Shown here piece after piece: positions 1,870 to 36,447 of a DNA stretch of 64,000 nt. The stretch spans positions 1 to 64,000 of the forward strand of contig JAAYIV010000035.1 of the NCBI GenBank assembly GCA_012523305.1. Reading direction: 5' to 3'. The notes beneath the pieces were generated by a model. It saw nothing but the letters and a program-made list of their open reading frames with translations. It was not told the origin of the DNA and ran no database searches. Both the position numbers and the translations under genes were made by a program. The number at the start of each line of letters is the position of its first letter. Within the stretch, counting starts at the first letter, position 1. Source of the DNA: Spirochaetales bacterium (GTDB taxonomy: Bacteria > Spirochaetota > Spirochaetia > Sphaerochaetales > Sphaerochaetaceae).

Positions 1870-3872
1870 TGGCACATGCAGAAACTGTTTTCAAAGAAAA
1901 CTTCCTTGAGTACGCATCATATGTGATTAAGGACCGGGCGATTCCTGACATCATCGATGGGTTAAAACCGGTACAACGTAGAATCCTCCATTCACTGTTT
2001 GAGATGGATGACGGTAAATTCCACAAAGTCGCTAACGTTGTCGGGCATGCGATGCGTTATCATCCTCATGGTGATGCCTCAATCGGGGATGCCCTGGTCA
2101 ATCTCGCAAATATGAACCTGTTCATAGACAAGCAGGGTAACTTCGGAAATATCTATACGGGAGACGAAGCCGCAGCTCCGAGGTATATCGAATGTAGAGT
2201 CCTGCCGTTCGCGAAGAAAGTCCTCTATAATCCCGAATTGACCGAAATGGTTGATTCATACGATGGGCGGAACAAAGAGCCGGTAGTGTTCCCTGCAAAA
2301 CTGCCCATCGTTTTGATCCAGGGAACCGAAGGTATCGCGGTAGGCATGTCGACCCGTATCCTTCCCCATAATCTCATTGAAGTTATTGATGCCGTGGCAG
2401 CCGTCCTCAATGGAAATACATTTGAATTGTATCCTGATTTCCCAACCGGAGGACTGATGGATATTTCTTCCTATTCAAATGGAACGGGAAAAGTTTTGAT
2501 CAGGGCAAAACTTGATACCAAAGATCCCAAAAGGATAGTAATTGATGAGCTGCCGTATGGTGTTACGACGGACAAGATGATCAAGTCTATTGAAGATGCC
2601 GGGAAAAAAGGGAAAATCAAGATTGCGTCGATCAATGACTATACTGCAGAAAAAGCCAATATTGAGATCACATTGGCTCGTAATACCTATTCGAACGAAG
2701 TTGTCGATGCCCTTTATGCATTTACCGCTTGTGAACAATCCATAACTGTCAACCCGTTGGTAATTAAGGACAATATTCCCACTATCATGACAGTTGAGGA
2801 GATGATTCATTTTCATGCAAAACACCTCGTTGAAGTGCTCACGATGGAATTGCAATTACAAAAAGGACATCTGCTCGACAGATTGCACGCAAGGACCCTC
2901 GAAAGAATTTTCGTAGAGGAACGGATATATAAGCGAATCGAGCAAAAACGTACGCAAGAAGAAGTCGAACGGGCTGTAATAACCGGATTCAATCCTTTTA
3001 AGGAGCAGATTGCCAGAGATGTCACTTCCGAAGATGTCGAACGATTGTTAAAAATTCCCATCAGACGCATCAGTCTTTTTGATATCGAGAAGAACAGGGC
3101 GGAAATTGAAGAGATCAATGCAGAGCTTGAGAAGATCGAATGGAACCTCAACCATATAATCGATTATTCATTGGGATTTCTTGATGAATTGAAACACATG
3201 GTAGGCATCGAAAGCCATAAGCGGAAAACTGAAATCGGAAGTTTCAAGAAAGCTGATGTGCGAGAAGCTGCCGTTCGTGATCTCCCTCTCAGATATGATC
3301 CGGAAAACGGTTATCTCGGGTATGGATTGAAAAGCGGGAACGTGTTGCTTACGGTATCGCAATTCGACAGAATCCTGATTATCCAAAAAGAAGGGACATA
3401 TTTTGTTACCGATGTTCCTGAGAAACTGTTTGTTGGGAAGGCCTTGCGACATTGTGGTTTTGCGGATAAGGAAGAGTTGGAGGCTCTTGTCTTTACCATC
3501 ATCTACCAAGAGAAGAATCTTAAATATCTCTTTATCAAGCGTTGTAGGATTACCCAATTCATTCTTAATAAAACGTATGAGCTGCTTCCCGGTGACGATT
3601 ATAAATTATATACGCTCTCAACCCTTGATGATGCAAGGATCACTATTTTGTACAAGAAAGGGAAGGGATATAAAAACTTGGAAGATCGAACATATTTCTC
3701 CAGATTCTTGATCAAAGGTGTCAAGGCAAACGGAGTTCGTCTTACAACCAAGGAAGCCCAGTCTCTGCGGATAAAACATGAAGCCGACCCTCAAGCACAG
3801 CAAGCCGAACCCTCATTGTTTGCAGATATCGATCCGTTTGATGACACGGTAAAGGATCAGGAAGATGAATAA
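1869..3872 (+). CDS. parC: DNA topoisomerase IV subunit A (ParC/GyrA family)
   Basis: DNA-breaking and rejoining subunit paired with ParE. The catalytic tyrosine is Tyr106 in AAAPRYIECR, preceded by the winged-helix region YHPHGDASIGD (64-74). The N-terminal breakage-reunion domain and coiled-coil tower fill the first ~440 residues; the C-terminal part is short, giving 667 residues against 750-880 for classical GyrA/ParC, and I see no GyrA box, which argues for a ParC role. At the position of E. coli GyrA Ser83 the residue is Ala70, while the Asp87 equivalent (Asp74) is kept. The start codon overlaps the parE stop, and the 3' end overlaps the following pseudouridine synthase by eight bases. 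Confidence 0.9.
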   Translation: MAHAETVFKENFLEYASYVIKDRAIPDIIDGLKPVQRRILHSLFEMDDGKFHKVANVVGHAMRYHPHGDASIGDALVNLANMNLFIDKQGNFGNIYTGDEAAAPRYIECRVLPFAKKVLYNPELTEMVDSYDGRNKEPVVFPAKLPIVLIQGTEGIAVGMSTRILPHNLIEVIDAVAAVLNGNTFELYPDFPTGGLMDISSYSNGTGKVLIRAKLDTKDPKRIVIDELPYGVTTDKMIKSIEDAGKKGKIKIASINDYTAEKANIEITLARNTYSNEVVDALYAFTACEQSITVNPLVIKDNIPTIMTVEEMIHFHAKHLVEVLTMELQLQKGHLLDRLHARTLERIFVEERIYKRIEQKRTQEEVERAVITGFNPFKEQIARDVTSEDVERLLKIPIRRISLFDIEKNRAEIEEINAELEKIEWNLNHIIDYSLGFLDELKHMVGIESHKRKTEIGSFKKADVREAAVRDLPLRYDPENGYLGYGLKSGNVLLTVSQFDRILIIQKEGTYFVTDVPEKLFVGKALRHCGFADKEELEALVFTIIYQEKNLKYLFIKRCRITQFILNKTYELLPGDDYKLYTLSTLDDARITILYKKGKGYKNLEDRTYFSRFLIKGVKANGVRLTTKEAQSLRIKHEADPQAQQAEPSLFADIDPFDDTVKDQEDE

Positions 3873-4605
3873 CATCGGACAAAGGATCATATTCGAAGAT
3901 AATCACCTGATACTATTGAATAAACTCCCGGGAGAGCTTAGCCAAGGGGACAAGACCAACGATGCGACCATACTCGATGATGTGAAACTGTATCTAAAAC
4001 AAAAGTATAATAAGCCTGGAAACGTATATCTGGGAGTCCCTCATCGCCTTGACAGGCCATCAAGCGGAATCCTTGTGCTTGCAAAAACAGAAAAAGCGTT
4101 GGTGCGGATGAACGATTTGTTTAGGGATGACAATGCCGTAAAAAAAATCTATTGGGCGGTTGTTGATCGAGTTCCCCGGGAACCCGAGGGAGTGGTCACT
4201 CATTATTTGACACGTAATCCAACTAAGAACAAAACTACCGCTAGTATTCATGAACGCATTCAAAGTAAGAAGGCGTCGATGCGATTCGCTATAATCGGAG
4301 CTTCAAAAAGTTTTTTTCTGCTTGAGATTGAACTCATCACCGGGAGACAGCATCAGATAAGGGCACAACTGGCGGCGATGGGATCCCATATTAAAGGGGA
4401 TCTCAAATACGGAGCCGCACGATCCAATCAAGGTGGCGGGATTCACCTGCATGCCAGAAGTATTGCATTTGTTCATCCGATCAAGCAGGAATTACTCACC
4501 GTAACAGCAGCTCCCCCTGCAGATCCGGTATGGGATTATTTTGCTTCGCTTGTTGATCAGGGTACCCAATCAACGTGGACGATGGAACCGCAACAAAGAA
4601 AATAA
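3865..4605 (+). CDS. RluA-family RNA pseudouridine synthase
   Basis: Converts specific uridines in rRNA or tRNA to pseudouridine. The family signature PHRLDRPSSGILVLAKT carries the catalytic aspartate (HRLD) at about residue 60, and ITGRQHQIRAQLAAMG matches the second conserved block. At 246 residues it has the catalytic domain only, with no N-terminal S4 domain, so it looks like the short RluA/YjbO-like branch. The target position cannot be read from sequence. The ATG lies inside the end of parC, so it belongs to the parE-parC operon. It ends ten bases before the convergent REC-PEP-binding gene, and no terminator hairpin is visible between them. Confidence 0.85.
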   Translation: MNNIGQRIIFEDNHLILLNKLPGELSQGDKTNDATILDDVKLYLKQKYNKPGNVYLGVPHRLDRPSSGILVLAKTEKALVRMNDLFRDDNAVKKIYWAVVDRVPREPEGVVTHYLTRNPTKNKTTASIHERIQSKKASMRFAIIGASKSFFLLEIELITGRQHQIRAQLAAMGSHIKGDLKYGAARSNQGGGIHLHARSIAFVHPIKQELLTVTAAPPADPVWDYFASLVDQGTQSTWTMEPQQRK

Positions 4606-4614
4606 CTGTAGATG

Positions 4615-7569
4615 CTAAAAATGCGAATCGGTATTCGATGGTAGTACGATGCCAATTTTTTTACGCCCGTCGGCTTTCACCGTGAATGGTCTCGCTGCTC
4701 GTACATGCCTGAAGTGAGCTGATTCTTTGATTATCGGCAAACGATCGAATTGCGAGAAATCACACGATCCATCATCATAACTGGGATTGACTGTCAAATA
4801 AATCGTTCCCAACGAAGTGATGTTTTGGAAAAAGTGCGTTCCTTGGCTTGGCTCTACTTGAAATCCAGGCAGTCCTGTTTCAATTATAACAGCGGCTTGT
4901 GATATCTGTGCCCAAATCACGGGTATTCCCAACCACCGATCACTTGACCCTAATCGACCGGCAACAATGAGGATGTATTGACGGTCTTCTTCGATAAACG
5001 GAGCATTTATCATCTCAAGTTCCAATGCCATTTCTGAAGTGTGGGCTGTTTTGAATTCGGTCGACTTGATATAGACCACATCGGTTATTGAATTGACCTG
5101 ACCGTTGCCCATAACGTGGTTTGACCATACCCATGCATGCTCTTTCTCTTGAGTTGAGATATTCAGGTCCATCGACTCGGCTCCTGATACGATGGGTCTG
5201 ATCTGAAGAAGGCTGAATTCTGGCTTTTTCCAATCGGGCCTGTTCAGATTGACCGCAAACTCAATCTCAATCGGGACGTTCATCACTTTTTCACCAAATG
5301 AAAGAATATCCCTTATGATTCCAGCAATCGGGTGGCTATTGTATTTCAATATGCCATTGAAGGTAATAACCTTTGGTCCGTCGATTGATAGCTGGTCCAC
5401 CAAAGTCCCGGATTTTGCATCGTAAGTCGACCCGATATACCGTAACGTTTCAGGATGTTTTTCAGCTTCGGACAATGGTACCAATGCGAGATTCTCTGGA
5501 TTTCCTTCCGGTACATAAGGCTTGCTCATGTCCAATGCATAAAAATCCATTTGCGAACTTGATTCCAATCCCCCTAAGAATTGAAGATTCTTCTTTGGGT
5601 ATCTCGGAGAAAACCTGAATGCCATACCGTTATCTACGACAGCTTTTCCAAATCCGAAGCACAGCATGCCAACTCCATCTTCCGGTTTTTCATTTCCGAT
5701 AGGATAGAAATTCAAAGAGCGGGCAACACCGGAAAAGTTAGGATACCAATACTCACCATGGGGGCTTCCGATGATTTGTTGGATGATAACCCCCATCTTT
5801 TCTTCTTCGATCATATGATTGGTCGCTCGTTGGTACTCTTTGCTCTTGTTGTAAAAGGTCGATGCATATACACATTTGATTGCTTGTGCCAAAGCATGAA
5901 GACGTTCTTCGTCTGTGCCTTTATTAGGAAGCATACAGGTTTCATAGACACCTGCAAAAGGTTGGTTGTGAGAATCTTCAAGCAGACTTGAAGAGCGAAC
6001 GGCAATCGGAACTTTAATTACGCGGACGATAGCCTCAAGATCCAGCATCAGTTGTGAAGGTAGCGGTTTAGATAGAAATACTTTGCGGAGGTTTTCATCC
6101 GGAAGAGACGAACCTGCAATTTCCATCAAGTTATTTTCTTCGATGAATTGACTGAACAAGTCAGTGGATATCACTACCGTACGCGGGATCGATACATACA
6201 TTCCTTGGTATTTTTCAACGATATTGCCTTTGCGAAGCTGATAGTCAATGAAGGCCAGGCCGCGGCCTTTGCCTCCTAAGGACCCTGATCCTATACGAGT
6301 AAAGAATGATAGTTCGTCATAATTGTTTCTATTGAATTGAGCGATTACTCCCTTACCGATATTAAGGCGGTAATCTTTGATCATCTGAACAAGATGGTCT
6401 CTCAATGCTTCCGGATCTTTGTATTCTGCTACAGACAGAGGTCTGAAGAGATTGGCCAAAAAGTAATGGCTTCTGGCCTTTAGCCAACGAGAGAAATCAT
6501 TGTGATTCGAATGTGCGATGAAACAAGATATCGGGACTTTTGGCATAACGTGTTGAAGAGCTCGAAGATCTTCGGCCCGTGCCAATTCTTCTTTTGTTTC
6601 GCTATCCCTGAAAATGAACGGTCCGAATCCATAATGTTCGAAAACATATTGACGTAAATCATTCAACAAGGAAGGGCTCAGTTTCCAAATGAAAGCGGCT
6701 TCATGATCGTATGCTGTCTGGGCATTATCATATTTTGCTGATTGGATTAACACTGGCAAATCTGGGTCGTGGGCTTTAAAATGGCGAAGTAAATGGAATC
6801 CTGCGTAAGGATCATTCGAACCCTCCCTGTCAAAAGCAACATCGGTGATAATCCCAAGCACATGCTGTTTGAAAGTATTGTAAAGGTCCATTGCCTCTTC
6901 ATATGTCTTGGCCAAAAGGATTTTCGGACGCCCTCTCATCCGTAATGCAGTGGCCCACGGATTGAGCGCTTCGCTCATGCTTGAACGCGTCTGTTGGATA
7001 ATGCATGTATAGAGCAATGGTAAGAAAGACGAGTAGAACCGTACTGAATTCTCCACCAATATGATTACCGGGACCTGAGCCGTAGAGTTCGCGTCATGCA
7101 GAGCGTTCATTCGATCTTCGAGAAGTTTTATCATCGCGAGGAATATGTTGGGATTACCCTGCCAATAGAATAAATTATCAACACATTGTTTAACTTTTTG
7201 GTAAAAAAATGAGCTCATCTTTTTATTCGGAAGCGGAGACAACGCGATTAAAGGAATATGTGTAAATTGTGATTTTATTGCATTTGCAAGATCAAATACA
7301 GTAGTTTTCCCCAAATCAAGCATCGTTACGACAAGATCGAATTTTCCCGTATTCAATAGATGAATAACATCTTCAATGGTTCGTGCATGCGTTATTTTCG
7401 GAGGAGTGCTCAAACCGAGTTGAGTATATTCCTGAAAGAGGATTTCTTCGACCCGTCCGTCTTCCTCAATGAGGAATTGATCATATTCGCTGCAAATGAG
7501 AATTACATTATAGATGTGCCGTAGCATTAAGTTTTCAAAAGGGTCTTGAGTTGGAAGTAATCTGTACAT
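4615..7569 (-). CDS. Receiver-receiver-PEP/pyruvate-binding domain protein
   Basis: A 984-residue protein. Residues ~18-140 look like a receiver domain whose phospho-acceptor aspartate is missing (DLVVTM where DLVLLD is expected). Residues ~165-315 look like a second receiver that keeps the aspartate (GIITDVAF, ~243) and a conserved lysine (FIWK). From ~425 on comes the ATP-grasp PEP synthase/pyruvate phosphate dikinase N-terminal domain, with GSLGGKGRGLAF, PRTVVISTDLF and AVRSSSLLEDSHNQPFAGVYET. The swivelling phosphohistidine domain and the PEP-binding barrel of true dikinases are absent, so it cannot run the full reaction alone. I infer a phosphorylation-controlled ATP-grasp enzyme of unknown substrate. 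No Shine-Dalgarno precedes the ATG; a -10 box lies five bases upstream. An alternative start is the Met at residue 15. Confidence 0.75.
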   Translation of the reverse strand: MYRLLPTQDPFENLMLRHIYNVILICSEYDQFLIEEDGRVEEILFQEYTQLGLSTPPKITHARTIEDVIHLLNTGKFDLVVTMLDLGKTTVFDLANAIKSQFTHIPLIALSPLPNKKMSSFFYQKVKQCVDNLFYWQGNPNIFLAMIKLLEDRMNALHDANSTAQVPVIILVENSVRFYSSFLPLLYTCIIQQTRSSMSEALNPWATALRMRGRPKILLAKTYEEAMDLYNTFKQHVLGIITDVAFDREGSNDPYAGFHLLRHFKAHDPDLPVLIQSAKYDNAQTAYDHEAAFIWKLSPSLLNDLRQYVFEHYGFGPFIFRDSETKEELARAEDLRALQHVMPKVPISCFIAHSNHNDFSRWLKARSHYFLANLFRPLSVAEYKDPEALRDHLVQMIKDYRLNIGKGVIAQFNRNNYDELSFFTRIGSGSLGGKGRGLAFIDYQLRKGNIVEKYQGMYVSIPRTVVISTDLFSQFIEENNLMEIAGSSLPDENLRKVFLSKPLPSQLMLDLEAIVRVIKVPIAVRSSSLLEDSHNQPFAGVYETCMLPNKGTDEERLHALAQAIKCVYASTFYNKSKEYQRATNHMIEEEKMGVIIQQIIGSPHGEYWYPNFSGVARSLNFYPIGNEKPEDGVGMLCFGFGKAVVDNGMAFRFSPRYPKKNLQFLGGLESSSQMDFYALDMSKPYVPEGNPENLALVPLSEAEKHPETLRYIGSTYDAKSGTLVDQLSIDGPKVITFNGILKYNSHPIAGIIRDILSFGEKVMNVPIEIEFAVNLNRPDWKKPEFSLLQIRPIVSGAESMDLNISTQEKEHAWVWSNHVMGNGQVNSITDVVYIKSTEFKTAHTSEMALELEMINAPFIEEDRQYILIVAGRLGSSDRWLGIPVIWAQISQAAVIIETGLPGFQVEPSQGTHFFQNITSLGTIYLTVNPSYDDGSCDFSQFDRLPIIKESAHFRHVRAARPFTVKADGRKKIGIVLPSNTDSHF

Positions 7570-26728: not shown

Positions 26729-27331
26729 CTAGAATTTCAGACTTGATAACAAATTGGTCAAAACATTAATGATAATCGAGATAATTACAAAACAGGCAAT
26801 CACCGATATCAGGGCTGTTGTCACAATCTTTCTAGTTGAGGTTTCTTTCCCTCTGAATATTTTCTTTAGTATGAAGTCATACATTCCTGAAAGCCAACCG
26901 TCTAACATTGCGATATATTGTATTGATTGGGGGTTTCGGTTATAGCAAAGGTAGAGCCTAATAGCTAATAATACTCCAAGGAATCCAATTGCATAGGCTC
27001 CGGCAGACCACCAAAGTGATTGAAGAATCAAGGCAAGAGCGTACCCTAGTGTGAGATTTCCTGTAATCGCATAACGTTGTAGAATTCTTTGTACGATACT
27101 CAGTGCGATAAGTGCAAATAGCGGACTGAAATCAATCCTCCTGGCCTTTAAAGGGATCAGTCGCTTGAAAAATCCTAAAAATGGATCAACGAGTTTTCCC
27201 AACAAGTCAATAAATGGTCCGCCAGTTTGTTCTGTACCTGGTAAACGAATCCATTGAACTATGATCCGAATAATTACCAAGTAATAATAGATGGAAATGA
27301 AGAATGCCAATATTCGGGCGAATTCCCGCAT
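26729..27331 (-). CDS. YggT family membrane protein
   Basis: A 200-residue membrane protein with two YggT repeats, each with a pair of transmembrane helices, seen in IVQWIRLPGTEQTGGPFIDL...DPFLGFFKRLIP in the first. YggT proteins have been tied to osmotic tolerance and, in other phyla, to division or organelle placement, but no activity is established. A strong AGGAGGT precedes the ATG. It lies 17 bases after dnaE and ten before recG in one transcript. Confidence 0.85.
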   Translation of the reverse strand: MREFARILAFFISIYYYLVIIRIIVQWIRLPGTEQTGGPFIDLLGKLVDPFLGFFKRLIPLKARRIDFSPLFALIALSIVQRILQRYAITGNLTLGYALALILQSLWWSAGAYAIGFLGVLLAIRLYLCYNRNPQSIQYIAMLDGWLSGMYDFILKKIFRGKETSTRKIVTTALISVIACFVIISIIINVLTNLLSSLKF

Positions 27332-27348: not shown

Positions 27349-30300
27349 CTAATCAAACCAGACTGAAGCGACCGCCTGATTTTCTTTAAGGTCAGCGATC
27401 AAATGTTCGTCATAACCGACAGAAAACTCTCTTGCCGCTCTTATGACTGTCGTTTTTGCATGTGCTTCTTGCTGCTGTTCCGTATGTAAAGTCGGTTCTT
27501 CCATGATATGGAGTAACACAGAACACGGACCTGAATATGTTATACATATATCTCGTAAATCGTGAAGTATTTTTTGATTGCACAAATCTTTTACTAAGGC
27601 TATATGAGCTTCCCTGACAGCTTCCGGTTCGAGTTTTTCCGGCTCAACAATATGTTCAATGATATAAGAGAGTTTATCTTGACGGGATTCAAACTTGCCT
27701 TTGAACCCGTATATGCCATCTGTTTTAATTGTTCCTTCGAAATCTTTATATATCTTAGGAAACACCACTGCTTCGATCGAACCGTTAAAATCAGAAAGTT
27801 GAAGGAACGCCATCCTATCACCCGAACCATTTTTCGTAATAATTTCCCGGAAGCTATTTACCATCGCAACAAGATTGACGGACCTGCCCTTAGGCAGTCT
27901 CTCCTGGTGTCCAAGATTGACGGTCACACACCGCTTGTGGACATCGCGATAAAAATCCATCGGATGACCGGACACATAGAATCCCAATAACTCACGTTCG
28001 GTATCAAGTTTTTCAAGCAATGTGGAATCCTCGACTTCGGTCATCTCAAATGTATCCAGAGAGGCTTCTTCTTCTGCATCAAACAGAGAGACTTGTCCAT
28101 ACATTTCATTCTCATGGCGTACTTGGACATACTTTACAGCTTGCTCTACATTAGCCAATAATGTAGGTCGATTGGTTCCCATCCCATCGAAAGCTCCCGC
28201 TTTTATCAAGGATTCGAGCAATTTGGAATTGAGCACCCTTGCTTCACACCGGTATAAAAAATCGATAAAGTTGGTAAAATGTCCGTTTATCGCGCGTTCT
28301 TTTAGAATACTTTCGACGGCAGCAGCCCCAACATTCTTAATCCCTTGCAGGCCATAGATGATTTTATTATCAGAGACATTGAAATGTTTATCCGAATGAT
28401 TTATCGATGGAGGTGAAATTGCGATTCCCATCGACTTGGCTTCATTGATATATAACGAAAACTTATCCGGATCATTTATTTCATTGGTAAGGTTCGCTGC
28501 CATGAACTCAGCAGGGTAGTTCGCTTTGAGATATGCCGTGCGATATGCAACGACTGAATAAGCTGCAGCGTGTGATTTATTGAAACCATAGCCTGCAAAT
28601 GGAAGCAGCATCTCGAAAATCCCCTCGGCCAACTGTTTTGAGTATCCACTTTTCTGTGCACCTTCAATGAAGCTGGCTTTTTCTTTTTCCATTACTTCAG
28701 CTTTTTTCTTACCCATTGCCCGACGTAACAGATCCGCGTGCCCCAATGAATACCCGGCTATTATTTGGGCAACTTTCATGACTTGCTCTTGATAGACGAT
28801 CACCCCATAGGTTGTTTTCAAAGGAGGTTCGAGATCAGGATGAAAATACTCGATAGGTTTCAATCCGTTCTTTGAGTCGGTGAATTTTGGGATATAGGCC
28901 ATTGGTCCGGGTCTGAAAAGTGCGTTCAAAGCAACCAGGTCTTCAATCGAATTCGGTTTTGCCTCTTTAAGGATGCGTTGCATGCCGGCACTTTCAAATT
29001 GGAAGACTCCCGCACTATCTCCCCGTGACAACATTTCAAAAGTGGCCGTGTCGTGTTCATCTATTTGCGTGATATCGAATGACGGATCTCTTTTCTTTAT
29101 CAAATCTTCGGTGTGTTTGATCAGTGTAAGCGTTTTCAAACCAAGAAAATCCATCTTCACCAATCCGCAACCTTCCAACATATCCATTGTGTATTGGGTG
29201 GAAACGGCTTCTGTTTTGGCATCCCAGTACAGTGGCACGTAATCTACAAGTTTCGTTTTCCCGATTACGACTCCAGCAGCGTGGGTTGAGATATGGCGGT
29301 TTAATCCTTCAAGGCGTTTTGCGACGTCAAAGAGTTCGGCGTAAATGCCGCCTTTCGCTACCAATTCTTGCAAATCGGGGGTAAATTCCAATGCTCCTTC
29401 AACGGACAACTTTCTTGGCTTTCCCGTCTCTTCATTCATAGGTAATTCGTCGGGAACCAAACCCACTATTCTCGTGGCTTCTGCGAAAGGGATATCCAAA
29501 GCTCGTGCTACATCTTTAAGAACAGCCTTTACCTTTAACGTACCGAACGTCGCAATCTGAGCTACTCTATCAGTACCGTACTTTCCTGTAACGTAATCTA
29601 TTACTTCCTGTCTGCGTTCGAAACAGAAGTCAATGTCAAAATCAGGCATCGATACCCGTTCGGGATTGAGAAACCGCTCGAACAGCAAATCATATTTGAT
29701 CGGATCGATATCGGTGATGGTCATGGCGTAGGCAACTATCGATCCTGCTCCGGATCCTCTTCCGGGGCCTACCGGTATATCATGTTGTTTTGCCCAATAG
29801 ATGAAATCCCATACTATCAAGAAATAACCGGTGAATCCCATACTGATAATTATGTCCAGCTCATAATCAAGGCGGTTTTGCAGCTCATCGGTTATCACGG
29901 GATAGCGTTTTTTCATACCATCATAGGCAATATGGCGTAAATACTCATCGGGGTTATCAAACTCCGGTGGTATTTGATAATCGGGTAATTGCGGTCCCGG
30001 CTGGCTTATCGTTACATTACATCGTTCGGCTATTTTTACTGAGTTCTCAATTGCTTCGGGAATCCAAGAAAACAATTCGGACATTTGTCCGGGACTTTTC
30101 ATATAGAATTCTTCGGTCTCGAATCTCATCCGATTCGTGTCGTTTTTTTTACGGTTCGTTCCGATACATAACACGATATCATGAGCATTGGCATCCGATG
30201 CTTCGATGTAATGGATATCATTAGTTGCCACGACAGGAATCCCGGTTTCTCGTGAAAGCTTTACCAAATCTTTGTTTACCGGTTTTTGGATCGCTATGCC

Positions 30301-30837
30301 GTGGTCTTGGAGTTCAAGATAGAATCGATTTCCATCGAAGATCGACGCATATGCTAAAGCACGTTCTTTCGCCCGATCGTAATTTCCTTCAGCCAACAGC
30401 GTCGGGATTTCTCCGGCCAGGCAAGCCGAGAGACAGATCAATCCTTTGTTGTGATTTCTAAGTAACTCGTCATCAATCCTTGGTTTATAATAGAATCCTT
30501 CAGTATAAGAAACAGAGTTGAGTACCATCAGGTTTCGATACCCTTCTTCGTTCATTGCCAACAGAATAAGGTGATAGTAGCGGGTATTGTTCGCTGTTGC
30601 TGTTTTTTCTGTGTGTGATTCCGGATTCACATAGAATTCACAGCCGACGATCGGATTGATTCCTGCAGCCTTACAGTCAATATAGAAGCGTAAAACTCCA
30701 AACATATTCCCATGGTCGGTGATGGCCAAATGTTTCATTCCGAATTGTTTTGCTTTTTCGATGTAGCGTTTTATCGGAGCTGCTCCATCAAGCAGTGAAT
30801 AGTCGGTATGGTTGTGTAGATGAATAAACTCGGGCAT
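27349..30837 (-). CDS. dnaE: DNA polymerase III alpha subunit
   Basis: Replicative polymerase of the DnaE type, 1162 residues. The N-terminal PHP domain opens with HNHTDYSLLDGAAP and keeps most metal-binding histidines (ITDHGN, NDIHY). The polymerase core includes GPGRGSGAGS and the catalytic PDFDIDFCFERR. A helix-hairpin-helix region (YGLQGIKNVGAAAVESIL) and an OB domain follow (NLVAMVNSFREIITKNG). The C-terminal region is short but normal. AGGAGGAGG precedes the ATG. Its own promoter lies ~25 bases upstream, and it leads the dnaE-yggT-recG-rsmD-thioesterase operon. Confidence 0.96.
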   Translation of the reverse strand: MPEFIHLHNHTDYSLLDGAAPIKRYIEKAKQFGMKHLAITDHGNMFGVLRFYIDCKAAGINPIVGCEFYVNPESHTEKTATANNTRYYHLILLAMNEEGYRNLMVLNSVSYTEGFYYKPRIDDELLRNHNKGLICLSACLAGEIPTLLAEGNYDRAKERALAYASIFDGNRFYLELQDHGIAIQKPVNKDLVKLSRETGIPVVATNDIHYIEASDANAHDIVLCIGTNRKKNDTNRMRFETEEFYMKSPGQMSELFSWIPEAIENSVKIAERCNVTISQPGPQLPDYQIPPEFDNPDEYLRHIAYDGMKKRYPVITDELQNRLDYELDIIISMGFTGYFLIVWDFIYWAKQHDIPVGPGRGSGAGSIVAYAMTITDIDPIKYDLLFERFLNPERVSMPDFDIDFCFERRQEVIDYVTGKYGTDRVAQIATFGTLKVKAVLKDVARALDIPFAEATRIVGLVPDELPMNEETGKPRKLSVEGALEFTPDLQELVAKGGIYAELFDVAKRLEGLNRHISTHAAGVVIGKTKLVDYVPLYWDAKTEAVSTQYTMDMLEGCGLVKMDFLGLKTLTLIKHTEDLIKKRDPSFDITQIDEHDTATFEMLSRGDSAGVFQFESAGMQRILKEAKPNSIEDLVALNALFRPGPMAYIPKFTDSKNGLKPIEYFHPDLEPPLKTTYGVIVYQEQVMKVAQIIAGYSLGHADLLRRAMGKKKAEVMEKEKASFIEGAQKSGYSKQLAEGIFEMLLPFAGYGFNKSHAAAYSVVAYRTAYLKANYPAEFMAANLTNEINDPDKFSLYINEAKSMGIAISPPSINHSDKHFNVSDNKIIYGLQGIKNVGAAAVESILKERAINGHFTNFIDFLYRCEARVLNSKLLESLIKAGAFDGMGTNRPTLLANVEQAVKYVQVRHENEMYGQVSLFDAEEEASLDTFEMTEVEDSTLLEKLDTERELLGFYVSGHPMDFYRDVHKRCVTVNLGHQERLPKGRSVNLVAMVNSFREIITKNGSGDRMAFLQLSDFNGSIEAVVFPKIYKDFEGTIKTDGIYGFKGKFESRQDKLSYIIEHIVEPEKLEPEAVREAHIALVKDLCNQKILHDLRDICITYSGPCSVLLHIMEEPTLHTEQQQEAHAKTTVIRAAREFSVGYDEHLIADLKENQAVASVWFD

Positions 30838-30900: not shown

Positions 30901-31788
30901 CTAACGCTCTGCTAAACTTTGGGTGTTCAGCTGATGCAATGCCATTTCAAAGATTCGCCTTACTCGTTCTTTTTGTAGTGCTGAAATAGTGGTGTTTGTA
31001 CTTTCAATAGCTTCAATAAGAACTTTGGCTATCCTTAGTATTTGCTGTGCAGAGAATGGGAGCATCGTTCCACGAGCTAATACCTCGATATCTTGGAACT
31101 GATGGAAGCCGCCATATGGTAAGGTCACACAAAAACGAAAGTTCGTAATAACCGACTGATTATATGAACAGACAAGGGTTAGCGATACGGTTTCATCTGG
31201 AATGACCATCGGATTGCCGGAGCAAAAGAAATAGGAGAAATCTTCGTGATCAAAACCCATCCTCACCCGAGTGATCACTTCGTTTTTCGCTATAAGGAGA
31301 CGACCGTTACGATCATATAACTTGCCCGTGGGAACCCATCTGGATTCTGTGTGCGGAGCGTCTAGTTTTTTCAATTCTATCTCAGTATTCAACACCGCCA
31401 ATGTCCCGGAAATTGCCAAACGGATATCAGGAGTACATAACGCACCCCCAATTGTCGCTTGTTTACGTACGATTCTGGTACCAAGTTCATGAAGGGTCTG
31501 AGTCAGGGGGTCGGGGACAATTTGCTTTCCAATCGAAGCCAATTGATTCAGCGTTACCATGGGTCCCACTTCAAGGTATCTGTCGGTTCTGTTGATTCTC
31601 TTAAAATCCGGAATCTCTCTCAGCGATATGATGTCGTAACTGTCTTTTGTCGGATAATAGTCATGCCTGCTCATGATGTATGTCCCACCGGCCCAATATA
31701 TGGCATTCCTAAATCTTGTGGCTGCGGATACGAGATCTCTCATTGTTTTTGGCACATGGATTGCTGGAGATCTAATTCCTTCGTACAC
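30901..31788 (-). CDS. XDH-family FAD-binding subunit
   Basis: Medium subunit of a xanthine dehydrogenase/CO dehydrogenase-type complex, 295 residues. The FAD-binding signatures are present: NAIYWAGGTYIMSR (usual AGGTDL position) and KQATIGGALCTPDIR (TIGG). The C-terminal CO-deh-flavoprotein domain follows, though weakly conserved. It would pass electrons from the [2Fe-2S] subunit to NAD or another acceptor. It overlaps the [2Fe-2S] gene upstream by 17 bases. The set's large subunit is unusual (see that entry), so the substrate is unknown. Confidence 0.8.
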   Translation of the reverse strand: MYEGIRSPAIHVPKTMRDLVSAATRFRNAIYWAGGTYIMSRHDYYPTKDSYDIISLREIPDFKRINRTDRYLEVGPMVTLNQLASIGKQIVPDPLTQTLHELGTRIVRKQATIGGALCTPDIRLAISGTLAVLNTEIELKKLDAPHTESRWVPTGKLYDRNGRLLIAKNEVITRVRMGFDHEDFSYFFCSGNPMVIPDETVSLTLVCSYNQSVITNFRFCVTLPYGGFHQFQDIEVLARGTMLPFSAQQILRIAKVLIEAIESTNTTISALQKERVRRIFEMALHQLNTQSLAER

Positions 31789-32284
31789 GTCTGCGCCTCC
31801 GGTAATTCGCTGCGGAATTGAAAATTTCTACAAGCTCCCGAGCATCCAGGCATGTGCATCTGTTCAAGCTCAATTCTTTGATAATGGTCTCATCTTCCAG
31901 ACTTGAATCGTTATCTTCCCCTTCGCTTGGCTTTCCAATCGTTCTGAGTAACGATTCGAATATCAGCGTTTTCGAAGGAAAGCACAGCGGGCAAGGTTGG
32001 CTTTTCGCATCTTCGTATGCACGTTCCAAATCATGCCAGAAACGGGTTTTTTTATAGCCTTCGAATGTGGTTATGTGTGCGTCGCGTAATCGAAAAGCGG
32101 GTATCAAACATGATAGGACGGCTTCATCATTCATCAACACCACGCAATTGCCACAATTGCCATCACGACATCTAGCATTAAACTGTGAGGATTCTACGTC
32201 TTCCATGAGAATCAGATTCAACGGTTTATTAGAATTAACCATGAGCAATGTTCGTTTGCCATCGATAAAGCATTCTATTTTCAT
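31772..32284 (-). CDS. XDH-family [2Fe-2S] subunit
   Basis: Small electron-transfer subunit, 170 residues, with two [2Fe-2S] clusters. All eight cysteines are present: plant-ferredoxin type C-x4-C-x2-C-x11-C (CRDGNCGNC...LSC) and a second site CPLC...CTC. The second site departs from the usual GFCTPG and CRCTGY sequences, reading CPLCFPS and RCTCLDA. It lies directly behind the large subunit (stop and start within one base) and overlaps the FAD subunit, which is tight coupling. Intact cysteines argue that the complex still moves electrons. Confidence 0.8.
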   Translation of the reverse strand: MKIECFIDGKRTLLMVNSNKPLNLILMEDVESSQFNARCRDGNCGNCVVLMNDEAVLSCLIPAFRLRDAHITTFEGYKKTRFWHDLERAYEDAKSQPCPLCFPSKTLIFESLLRTIGKPSEGEDNDSSLEDETIIKELSLNRCTCLDARELVEIFNSAANYRRRRRVRRN

Positions 32285-34267
32285 TCAATTTTCCCTAATA
32301 TAGGCGACAAGATCATCGCCTGTTATCGGTAATGAACTCACATCGTTATTCAAAGCTTGGCTCAATGCCGATGTTAGAGCCGCCATAACCATTCCTTTCA
32401 AAGCTTGATGGGCAGAACTAGGCGCAACAGTATGATTCTGATCTTCAATATAAATCTCTAAAGAAGATTCCCTGCCTTTTTCACTTGTGAACCTGGCATT
32501 ACATCCTAGCACAGCGGAGATAATCGCTTGTCTGCAAGATGCTTTCAAAGCTTCTTTGTCATGGGCATTCGCAAATGATAAATGACACCAGATATGGCGA
32601 ATATCAACTTGAAGGGTAACGGTGTTTACCTCTAGTTCCAAGACTAACGTTCCCCAATATCCACTGGAAAACAATGGTTCGGATGTTTTGATGACATCCC
32701 TTACGGTACATGATTCTATGATGGGCAATGGATCTTGGAACCTTCGTTTCTTTATCTTGCTACAGCAATATTGCAGCATTGCACATGTATGGGTAATATC
32801 TTCCATCAGTACATTGGGTCCACTGTCCAAAATTGTCGATGTATCACCCCGTATTATCTCAATAGAGCCTCCTTCCAATGCCAGTTCTTCTTTTATGATG
32901 GTACGCCATAGATCGGTTACATGATCAGGGCTAAGATGTCCGCAATGGACCATCACCCTGTTATTCGTATCAAGTTTCAAAGAAACAGAGTATCGATTCA
33001 AAAATGGAAAGGAAGCGCTGAATCCGCTAATTCCCGATGCACAGGCGATCCCGACACCTCGTGAATAGTTGATGAACGTCGACAGTGGATTGCGGACCCT
33101 CCTCTGAAGTTCATACACAGCATTGTGACGTGCGAAGTCACTGATAGTGCAGACTTCTCCGATAATATCACGTAATTTGGATAAAGGCAGAGTTTCAACT
33201 ATAGTAGATCGCTTATCATTGTCTTCATAATATTTTATCCGCCAGTTTGCCGGATTGGATTGGGAACCTTTTGCCAAGGCAGAAGCATGGGCTTCTGTTG
33301 AAAATACGGCGGCAGAATAACCGAGATCTCCAAAAAAATTGGCTGGAGGCGCATCTGATGTGTTGCAGATTATCTTAATCGAACATGCTTCCAATGGATA
33401 AAATGGAAGCAATCCGGCTTTCATCTGATTGGCCAATTCATCGGAAAATAATATGGTAGCACCGCACTCTATGGTTGCCACGATCTCTTCTGCGATTGGT
33501 CTGCTTTCAGCATCCAAAGCAGTCTTGCGTTGAATAGAAAAAGATGGTTTACAGGTGGGATACCTAGATCCTAACTGCACAGGACGTTTTGATTTGAGTG
33601 ATGCAATAGCTGCGATGCTTGCAAGAACTGACGAATTGACAAGGTGTTCATCTTTTGTCGTGTAGTAGGGTAAGGCTTGAACGACGATATCTTTTGGATC
33701 CTTTGCACATGCAGCGGCAACCGAATCAACCACATGGAATGGCCATTGAGTTGGCACTTCAATTCGTAATGCGGTATCTACGGTCGAGCAACGGGCATAT
33801 TTAACCATGAATTCTTGGGTGCATTCACGACGGTCTTTATATGTGCGTTCGAAATATGATGCAGCTTGTGTCGTTAACTGATGTAAGTTCCCCCAACCCG
33901 ATTCATAGACCTTCGGTTGTTGTTTCTCACTTCGGCCCAATGACGACGTATCCATACCCGGCAATTGGTATTCAACCTCAATCTCGCGAGCTTTGACCTC
34001 AACAGTTTCGGCATCGGGACCAAAAATAGCCAACATCGGTTGCCCGCGATATTCAATGGTTGAAGTGGAAAAAATTCTATAGGGTTCCCCCAGAACATCG
34101 ATTGTTTGGGATCCGGGAATATCTTTGGCAGTGATGACGAGAAAACGACTGTCCAGTTCTGGCAGCGTGGTTTTTAACACAATGCCGGAATCGATGGTCG
34201 ACCGTACTATTATCCCATGCAGCATTCCCGGTTTGAGTCCGGTTGGACGCTGAACTTTTTCTGCCAT
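32285..34267 (-). CDS. Divergent XDH-family molybdopterin-type large subunit
   Basis: About 660 residues with the xanthine dehydrogenase/aldehyde oxidase plan: an a/b hammerhead domain (ITAKDIPG...) then the large catalytic fold. The usual cofactor motifs are replaced. GGGFGGK is not seen. AFRGFG reads NFFGDLG. The GQG motif reads HLSPDHVT. The C-terminal GVGE with the catalytic Glu is replaced near APSSAHQAL. It is also shorter than the usual ~750. I infer that it may not hold molybdenum in the standard way. The start at 34267 has AAAGGGG upstream and fits the promoter; an ATG at 34288 opens a longer reading without a ribosome binding site. Confidence 0.7.
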   Translation of the reverse strand: MAEKVQRPTGLKPGMLHGIIVRSTIDSGIVLKTTLPELDSRFLVITAKDIPGSQTIDVLGEPYRIFSTSTIEYRGQPMLAIFGPDAETVEVKAREIEVEYQLPGMDTSSLGRSEKQQPKVYESGWGNLHQLTTQAASYFERTYKDRRECTQEFMVKYARCSTVDTALRIEVPTQWPFHVVDSVAAACAKDPKDIVVQALPYYTTKDEHLVNSSVLASIAAIASLKSKRPVQLGSRYPTCKPSFSIQRKTALDAESRPIAEEIVATIECGATILFSDELANQMKAGLLPFYPLEACSIKIICNTSDAPPANFFGDLGYSAAVFSTEAHASALAKGSQSNPANWRIKYYEDNDKRSTIVETLPLSKLRDIIGEVCTISDFARHNAVYELQRRVRNPLSTFINYSRGVGIACASGISGFSASFPFLNRYSVSLKLDTNNRVMVHCGHLSPDHVTDLWRTIIKEELALEGGSIEIIRGDTSTILDSGPNVLMEDITHTCAMLQYCCSKIKKRRFQDPLPIIESCTVRDVIKTSEPLFSSGYWGTLVLELEVNTVTLQVDIRHIWCHLSFANAHDKEALKASCRQAIISAVLGCNARFTSEKGRESSLEIYIEDQNHTVAPSSAHQALKGMVMAALTSALSQALNNDVSSLPITGDDLVAYIREN

Positions 34268-34292
34268 TTGATTAATGACCCCTTTCATATCA

Positions 34293-34349
34293 AAATTACC
34301 ATTTTGCTATGTCTAGCGCAATGGCAAAACCCGGTAAAGTAGGTATACT
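34293..34349. promoter_or_regulatory. Divergent promoters of the XDH-like set and ligA
   Basis: Minus strand: TTGCGC (34321-34316), 17 bases, TAATTT (34298-34293). Plus strand: TGGCAA (34322-34327), 16 bases, TATACT (34344-34349). The two -35 boxes abut, so the two operons are likely to compete or be co-controlled. The minus-strand start falls near 34288, which supports the internal start codon for the large subunit. Confidence 0.5.
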
Positions 34350-34386
34350 ATACGTCAGACGACACCGATAGGGAGGAACAGTATCG

Positions 34387-36447
34387 ATGGATATCGTCCA
34401 AGCGAAGAGAGAGTGGGAGCAATTAGCGCAACAACTAAGAGTGTGGCAATACGAATACTATGTTAAGGCCGCTCCTTCTATAAGCGATAGCGAATACGAT
34501 CGAGTATTTGATCGGTTGGTAGCGTTGGAACATGATTATCCCGAATTGAGTGTTGAAGATTCACCTTCCAAACGCGTCGGTAGCGATCTGGATTCCAGTT
34601 TCCCTGAAGTTTCTCATTCAATCGCGGTGTTAAGTCTCGACAAAGCATATTCGGATGACGCTGTTCTACAATGGATCGATCGATGTGAACAGAAAGGAAC
34701 GAGAGAACTTTCATTCGTCATTGAAGAAAAGATTGACGGTATCTCTATTGTTTTGTACTACGAAAAAGGAATCTTAAAACGTGCGGTAACCAGGGGGAAT
34801 GGTTTTGTTGGCAATGATGTGACAGCTAACATCAAGACGATTGGCTCGGTGCCGCTTTCCCTACCCGAAGAAATAGACATCGCAGTACGCGGAGAAATAT
34901 ATCTGGAGCGTGTTGATTTCGACCGGTTAAACAAAAACTCGGAACTCCCCTATGCCAATCCAAGGAATCTGGCAGCTGGAACCATTAGGCGTAATAAGAG
35001 CAGCGAAGTGGCTAAAGTCCCTCTGAAAATATTCGTCTATGAAGGGTTTTGGTCGAAAAGTGAGGAACAACCAACCCATCATGTACAGATTTTAACTGAA
35101 CTGATCAGATTGGGATTCAGAGTGAATCCATCTTTCGCGATATTTGCCAATACGGCGATAAAAGCTAAAGAATTATGTGGGAACATTGTTACGGGGAGTA
35201 CGATAACAGGTTCTTTTACCGATCTTGCCGATTATATCCATCACGCCACAACCAATCGCAAACATCTTGAGTACGATATCGATGGCTTGGTCATTAAAGT
35301 GGGAGAATTGGCCATGAGGGAACAGTTGGGATATACTGGACACCATCCTCGTTGGGCTATTGCTTTTAAATTTGAAGCTCCTGAGGCCTTGACTACGATC
35401 CAAGCCATAGATGTACAGGTAGGAAGAACAGGGAGAATCACACCGGTGGCAAGAGTCGAAAGCGTACCGATCGGAGGTTCTGTAGTCTCAAATATCACAT
35501 TACACAATCAAGACTACATCGACATGCTTGAACTTTCTTTGCAAGATGTTGTCGCCATATCGAAGAGAGGAGATGTTATCCCGGCAGTTGAGCGGGTTGT
35601 CGAAAAGAATTCATCAGGAAATAAGACTTGGAACATGCCAGCGCACTGTCCGGTTTGTCGTACCGCATTGATTACGAAAGGTGCCCATACTTTCTGTCCC
35701 AATACGGGTTGCCCCGATCAAGTTCTCGGCAGGATCATATTTTTTGTTGGTCGTGATCAGATGGATATTGCAGGGTTAGGCCCGGAAACCGTAAAATATC
35801 TCGTAGACAACCAATGTATCAAAGACATCGCCGATTTATATACATTTGACCCCGATCAACTTATTGGAAAAGCTGGATTTGGTGAGAAGAAAGTTGCATT
35901 GATCAAACAAGGATTGGCAGAGAGTAGACAAAAACCGTTTAAATATGTTTTGGTTTCATTAGGAATTCCTGAGTTTGGGAAGAAAGCTGTCGACTTGTTG
36001 ATTTCCAGTGGGATTTCTTCGATCGACAAGCTTTTGGCAATCGTTGATGCTGGCGATTCTGAACGATTGCTAGCCATTAAAGGCTTCGGACAGAAGACGG
36101 TCGATTCGCTGTTTGAATATCTTTCTGACCCGGTGATGCGTAAGAGAATCGAACAACTCCGAGAAGCACAGCTACAGTTTGAGCAAGGAAAGGAAACTGC
36201 TGGGCCAGCACAATCACACGTATTTTCGGGACAGACGTGGTGTGTCACCGGAAGTTTTGAGCATTTTTCACCTAGATCGCTTGCGCTTGAAGAAATTGAA
36301 AAGCGTGGTGGAAGGACAACCGGTTCAGTTACTGGTAAAACTACCCATTTATTGGCCGGTAGCGGAGCCGGTAGTAAGTTGGACCAAGCCCTAAAGCTCG
36401 GGATTACGGTTGTAGGTGAAGAAGATTTTATATCCTTGCTTGACTAA
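34387..36447 (+). CDS. ligA: NAD-dependent DNA ligase
   Basis: Seals nicks in replication and repair using NAD. Domain Ia (DSEYDRVFDRLVALE), the adenylation site with the reactive lysine K115 in EEKIDGIS, OB fold, a four-cysteine zinc finger (CPVCRTAL...CPNTGCP), helix-hairpin-helix repeats and a C-terminal BRCT domain (WCVTGSFEHF...) are all present in 686 residues, the standard length. GGGAGGAA precedes the ATG by eight bases. The aminotransferase gene follows after 17 bases with its own ribosome binding site, so they are probably cotranscribed. Confidence 0.96.
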   Translation: MDIVQAKREWEQLAQQLRVWQYEYYVKAAPSISDSEYDRVFDRLVALEHDYPELSVEDSPSKRVGSDLDSSFPEVSHSIAVLSLDKAYSDDAVLQWIDRCEQKGTRELSFVIEEKIDGISIVLYYEKGILKRAVTRGNGFVGNDVTANIKTIGSVPLSLPEEIDIAVRGEIYLERVDFDRLNKNSELPYANPRNLAAGTIRRNKSSEVAKVPLKIFVYEGFWSKSEEQPTHHVQILTELIRLGFRVNPSFAIFANTAIKAKELCGNIVTGSTITGSFTDLADYIHHATTNRKHLEYDIDGLVIKVGELAMREQLGYTGHHPRWAIAFKFEAPEALTTIQAIDVQVGRTGRITPVARVESVPIGGSVVSNITLHNQDYIDMLELSLQDVVAISKRGDVIPAVERVVEKNSSGNKTWNMPAHCPVCRTALITKGAHTFCPNTGCPDQVLGRIIFFVGRDQMDIAGLGPETVKYLVDNQCIKDIADLYTFDPDQLIGKAGFGEKKVALIKQGLAESRQKPFKYVLVSLGIPEFGKKAVDLLISSGISSIDKLLAIVDAGDSERLLAIKGFGQKTVDSLFEYLSDPVMRKRIEQLREAQLQFEQGKETAGPAQSHVFSGQTWCVTGSFEHFSPRSLALEEIEKRGGRTTGSVTGKTTHLLAGSGAGSKLDQALKLGITVVGEEDFISLLD

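Follow-up and report, generated by a model that had tools for sequence, protein, structure and literature searches.

A xanthine dehydrogenase-like complex of spirochaetes whose large subunit has lost the molybdenum site, with a possible role in oxidative-stress defence

What might a xanthine dehydrogenase (XDH) do once the residues that should hold its molybdenum cofactor (Moco) have gone? The question is raised by a 64,000-nucleotide stretch of DNA (the window) from a Sphaerochaetaceae metagenome-assembled genome that is 99.87% complete, in which a gene at 32285..34267 on the reverse strand encodes an XDH-like large subunit without Moco motifs, as judged from its open reading frame, homology, an AlphaFold2 model and a Foldseek search. 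The reading frame spans 34288..32285 (667 aa), and the start is probably at 34267 rather than 34288, given that homologues begin at an internal MAEK. On the same strand follow genes for a [2Fe-2S] subunit of 170 aa with eight cysteines (31772..32284), a FAD subunit of 295 aa with a GTG start and AGGT and TIGG motifs (30901..31788), DNA polymerase III alpha (dnaE, 27349..30837) and a membrane protein that we take from its sequence to be YggT-like (26729..27331). No gap separates the large subunit gene from the Fe-S gene, the latter shares 17 bases with the FAD gene and dnaE begins 63 bases further on, and because of this close packing the five genes likely form one operon, of which yggT would be the last. 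The NAD-dependent DNA ligase gene ligA (34387..36447, forward strand) diverges from it, and the layout points to the intergenic region (34268..34386) as the presumed operon promoter region.

Pfam recognises the large subunit poorly, with a weak match to PF02738 (E=2e-7, against about 1e-75 for canonical relatives) and a match to PF20256 that lies under the cut-off and covers part of the model only. Its family profile covers almost the full length of solved XDH-family large subunits (best E=1e-63), and an hhalign comparison of the family with canonical spirochaete hydroxylases keeps 667 columns in register at a probability of 100. The AlphaFold2 model (pLDDT 90, pTM 0.90) has a TM score of 0.82 to R. 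capsulatus XDH in Foldseek, and the fold and domain order of an XDH large subunit are present, so the original prediction was right that the overall plan is kept.

The molybdenum site is another matter. In an alignment to four canonical Mo-hydroxylases of spirochaetes, of which two belong to the window's own genome, the protein has PANFFGDLGY at the AFRGFG position, PYYTTKDEHL at that of GGGFGGK, HCGHLSPDHV at that of EMGQG and APSSAHQALKG at that of GAKGVGE. The replacement of AFRGFG, GQG and GVGE and the lack of GGGFGGK had all been predicted. The catalytic glutamate, GluB730 in R. capsulatus XDH (for its role see PMC2671166), has gone with the last of these, and neither the Gln loop (GQEHFYLE) nor the GGxxQGLG loop is preserved. 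A shifted Glu, GQG or other relocated Moco motif was sought by motif and profile-profile alignment and none was found, the profile-profile alignment being in register throughout. With the three-subunit XDH, nicotinate dehydrogenase and CO dehydrogenase family (1jro, 1rm6, 3hrd) the window's trio has in common the fold, the domain plan, a subunit with two [2Fe-2S] clusters and a FAD subunit, whereas its large subunit lacks the Moco loops, the catalytic Glu and the AFRGFG arginine found in the family of R. capsulatus XDH (1jro), 4-HBCR (1rm6) and NDH (3hrd), is about 100 residues shorter and belongs to a clade that is present where Moco genes are absent. Taken together, the motifs, the genome-wide Moco profiles and the phylogeny strongly support the loss of the molybdenum site and support a role other than that of XDH.

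Could the protein nonetheless be a working if atypical molybdoenzyme, with Moco held by the replacement residues? The XDH fold is kept, and the host encodes two intact hydroxylases and an XdhC-like protein, so that Moco may reach the cell. Against this, every Moco-contact loop is replaced, MoaA, MoaC and MoeA were not found in the window's genome or in nearly all of its family, and 43 genomes have a match to the family profile but neither MoaC nor a canonical hydroxylase, and we regard the idea as very unlikely. The survey of host Moco genes, which the original prediction had put forward as a check, found none of these three in the window's genome but is not decisive by itself. Sphaerochaetaceae genomes without moaA, moaC and moeA carry intact canonical hydroxylases, and two further hydroxylases of the window's genome (L031 and L032) retain the Moco motifs, so we rejected the stand-alone argument that a host without Moco must have a Moco-free trio.

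Because the Sphaerochaetaceae hosts carry such enzymes, the argument rests instead on genomes without them. Among 149 genomes of the class, 115 had a match to the family profile and 67 a MoCoBD_1 match at E<1e-50, taken as the sign of a canonical Mo-hydroxylase. Forty-eight of the 149 matched the family profile but had no canonical MoCoBD protein, and 43 of these were also without MoaC; the 48 include one genome (G081) that the tree places beside the canonical clade. Besides that genome, 19 of the 48 were read in sequence and the Moco motifs were lost in all 19. Among these is a closed genome of 1,139,633 bp (G093), in which the trio is present and MoaC and canonical hydroxylases are not. The canonical Mo-hydroxylases of the window's genome (G000; L031 at 3265-6153 and L032 at 1-1878) have intact motifs, as have those of other Sphaerochaetaceae genomes. 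One of these enzymes sits in a gene cluster resembling one for purine degradation, and an XdhC-like protein occurs as well. In hosts without moaA, moaC and moeA these enzymes may be orphan molybdoenzymes, or the cells may scavenge Moco.

The large subunit is no isolated oddity but a member of one clade restricted to the Spirochaetota. Homologues occur in 56 of 61 relatives, and when two degenerate peptide patterns were run against 84,980 species, each represented by a single genome, 110 encoding stretches came back, of which the 80 kept all belong to Spirochaetota (Sphaerochaetaceae, Treponema, Breznakiella, Brucepastera and others). Wherever the contig is long enough to show it, essentially all of the 80 named loci have the order large subunit, Fe-S, FAD. 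In a tree whose canonical sample was only eight spirochaete sequences, and from which Borrelia was left out, the degenerate large subunits are monophyletic with respect to the canonical ones at a support of 0.99-0.998, also when the motif columns are removed. A match to profile A3 is insufficient for membership, as a canonical XDH (L142) also scores well, and the PF02738 threshold and a reading of the motifs were used as well. One candidate (L138, from G081) was dropped since it retains both EMGQG and KGIGE and branches next to the canonical clade. This large subunit (G081:C54) is intermediate in character, with EMGQG and GGKGIGE kept and GGGFGGK and AFRGFG not, its genome has no MoaC match, and there is no Fe-S subunit match beside the large subunit gene.

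Every clade member examined has lost Moco loops, although to a graded extent. Large subunits of the Treponema/Breznakiella type have lost GGGFGGK, the AFRGFG arginine and GQG and keep the Gln loop (GIQEHWYSEP) and often PKGIGEL, which contains the Glu, whereas those of Sphaerochaetaceae are without all the loops. Since the Treponema/Breznakiella types have lost the molybdenum-binding loops while the Gln loop, and in many cases the Glu, is still there, the loops whose loss is common to all members were the first to disappear.

The losses could be taken for the decay of a neutral relic or pseudo-operon, as cofactor sites have indeed been lost progressively. We find this scarcely credible given the intact frames, the gene order conserved across many families and reduced genomes, and the low dN/dS of the three genes (0.03-0.28 over 14 close pairs, similar to dnaE), which also led us to reject a pseudogene. 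The trio is under purifying selection.

What then is selected? The two smaller subunits were predicted to keep their cofactor sites, and in the window they do. The Fe-S subunit has cysteines at positions 39, 44, 47, 59, 98, 101, 143 and 145, the eight expected by sequence for two [2Fe-2S] clusters, and all eight are kept in 95 of 98 homologues. The FAD subunit matches FAD_binding_5 (8e-19 in Pfam) and retains AGGT and TIGG, the binding motifs being supported by both sequence and fold. Elsewhere these sites have eroded. The Fe-S subunit has lost the four cluster II cysteines in the closed 1.14-Mb genome G093, seven of the eight cluster cysteines in G063 (L124, where the frame is open and adjoins the large subunit and FAD partners) and one cysteine in G106, and the FAD GG-T motif is missing in G070 and G082. 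Despite the loss of cofactor sites the genes remain open at the eroded loci (L119, L124, L125/L129), and the trio is still complete in most of these genomes, the Fe-S gene of G082 not being recovered by the ORF call. The prediction of an intact electron path joined to a changed active site therefore stands in part. The site has changed and the path looks intact in the window's lineage, judging by its cofactor motifs, but an intact path is not what the family as a whole is kept for. As the trio stays under selection in relatives that lack one or both Fe-S clusters or the FAD motif, its function family-wide probably does not need a complete electron chain from FAD to the pocket.

The main rival to the reading that we prefer bears directly on this chain. 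The trio could be a repurposed oxidoreductase whose pocket binds another substrate or cofactor, with electrons passing between the pocket, the two [2Fe-2S] clusters, FAD and NAD(P)H. Throughout the Sphaerochaetaceae the eight cysteines and the FAD motif are kept, and the former P-loop (YAPHDEML), AFRGFG (FFGDLGYS) and DSGP loops lie at the 83rd-88th conservation percentile with a new consensus. This pattern suggests that the three re-conserved loops form a site with a function of its own and not mere scaffolding. As the original prediction had suggested, the altered site may accommodate another ligand, or it may have a purely structural or sensory role. The Gln and GQG loops, however, are among the least conserved columns (15th-20th percentile), and the trio persists in relatives where cluster II, both clusters or the FAD motif have gone, so that we consider a repurposed oxidoreductase possible but not probable.

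A clue to function comes from more distant relatives. The Fe-S profile also matches Borrelia-like genomes, in which a trio of consecutive genes lies one gene from ligA and just before ptsI. Its Fe-S subunit (E=1e-19) has lost the cluster II cysteines and kept CxxC...CxC, its FAD subunit (E=2e-24) has lost AGGT and TIGG, and Pfam gave no match above threshold for any of the three proteins. The large subunit, of 617-629 aa, aligns to the family by hhalign with 536 columns in register (P 93.7, E=2e-7), whereas a plain HMM scores it at no more than 4.4 bits, the best of 500 shuffles reaching 0.4. The Fe-S and FAD genes have dN/dS values of 0.08-0.14 and the large subunit gene has values of 0.30-0.37; for comparison, those of ptsI are 0.13-0.16 and that of ligA is 0.25.

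From the ligA/ptsI context we take this trio (L151-L153) to be bb0554-bb0556 of Borrelia burgdorferi. It has the same three-gene order near ligA as the window, with the Fe-S and FAD subunits recognisable and the large subunit detected by profile-profile comparison, but has lost cluster II cysteines and FAD motifs that the window's form keeps. The identification is almost certainly correct, resting on this context together with the remark that bb0554-bb0556 have 'limited homology to carbon monoxide dehydrogenase' (PMC5333916). In the same study these genes were found in both the H2O2 and the TBHP Tn-seq screens, pooled, and bb0554 and bb0555 are listed in a larval-tick Tn-seq screen (PMC6516651). 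In a review the cluster is called xdhACB and described as a xanthine dehydrogenase that plays a part in resistance to ROS (PMC10566445); it cites Phelan et al. 2023, the title of which describes a putative xanthine dehydrogenase as critical for survival in ticks and mice.

These observations favour, at a probability of roughly 0.5, a trio that is a molybdenum-free, non-hydroxylase heterotrimer derived from XDH, with a redox-related protective role that is most likely directed against peroxide or oxidative stress. The complex would descend from an enzyme of the xanthine dehydrogenase/aldehyde oxidase type, and its large subunit would keep the fold and its part in assembly while being unable to bind molybdopterin or hydroxylate a substrate. 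It may act by binding a partner or ligand around the large subunit and the adjoining cluster I site, the large subunit serving as the binding platform. FAD and cluster II would then be optional modules that the window's lineage has, probably in working order, and that others can do without. The re-conserved loops of the Sphaerochaetaceae count against a mere platform. For the window's own trio we infer the peroxide or oxidative-stress role by analogy with a published phenotype that is known only from the putative Borrelia orthologue, and the transfer is uncertain given that the sequences are very divergent and the Borrelia large subunit is matched by profile-profile alignment alone. More speculatively still, a molybdenum hydroxylase may have become a peroxide-defence complex free of metal-pterin before the class radiated, with the Sphaerochaetaceae pocket then rebuilt (FFGDLGY, HDEML) for a different ligand or redox cofactor fed by the FAD/2[2Fe-2S] chain.

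Much of the background to this is already known, including the XDH family itself, the Borrelia genes with their stress phenotype and putative XDH label, and XDH-like proteins orphaned from Moco genes (PMC6147048). That 2018 survey reported hundreds of organisms with orphan XDH/DMSOR-type proteins but no Moco pathway, and found no sequence feature to mark metal-independent forms. The spirochaete clade supplies such features, a gene-order signature and, via Borrelia, a phenotype. In the open-licence literature we found no report of a spirochaete-wide clade, of ordered loss of the Moco loops or of any argument ruling the Borrelia proteins out as molybdenum enzymes. By implication, the 'xanthine dehydrogenase' reported to matter to Lyme spirochaetes in ticks and mice probably does not use molybdenum chemistry to oxidise xanthine, and what is worth measuring changes accordingly. 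If our reading is true, a whole enzyme complex would have been retained after the loss of its catalytic cofactor, with intermediate stages still visible.

The neighbouring genes offer a further alternative, in which the trio is a factor in DNA replication or repair, as its dnaE operon, its ligA neighbour and an arginine-rich Fe-S tail might imply. Of 81 loci, 31 have dnaE downstream of the trio and 32 have ligA upstream, the dnaE linkage being kept in other spirochaete families and the ligA adjacency in Sphaerochaetaceae. The tail is basic in most homologues (median five R/K in the last 14 residues) but weak or absent in some, and the neighbours differ at many loci of the Treponema type (NusG-like, nucleotide-sugar genes, and downstream a gene that we read from its sequence as aroB), and we judge such a role unlikely. 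In the window the tail reads RRRRRVRRN (31772-31820), and we know of no counterpart in canonical subunits.

The linkage of DegT to the trio is weak evidence of function because the two are separable in both directions, DegT being absent from Sphaerochaetaceae with the trio and the reverse holding in G047. A partnership with a deoxysugar dehydrase of the E1/E3 type was rejected on the same separability, and also because the DegT proteins linked to it retain their PLP lysine. We take G093, from its gene context, to be T. pallidum and its large subunit to be TP0080, labelled a 'quinoline 2-oxidoreductase', for which we found nothing relevant in the open-licence literature. Its trio resembles that of the window in gene order and in the loss of the Moco loops, but has no cluster II cysteines and lies beside CapD and DegT genes rather than dnaE and ligA. 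Conserved NusG-like, CapD-like and DegT genes lie directly upstream in many Treponema-type loci and in L033, L119 and L139, and even the 1.14-Mb genome retains CapD and DegT.
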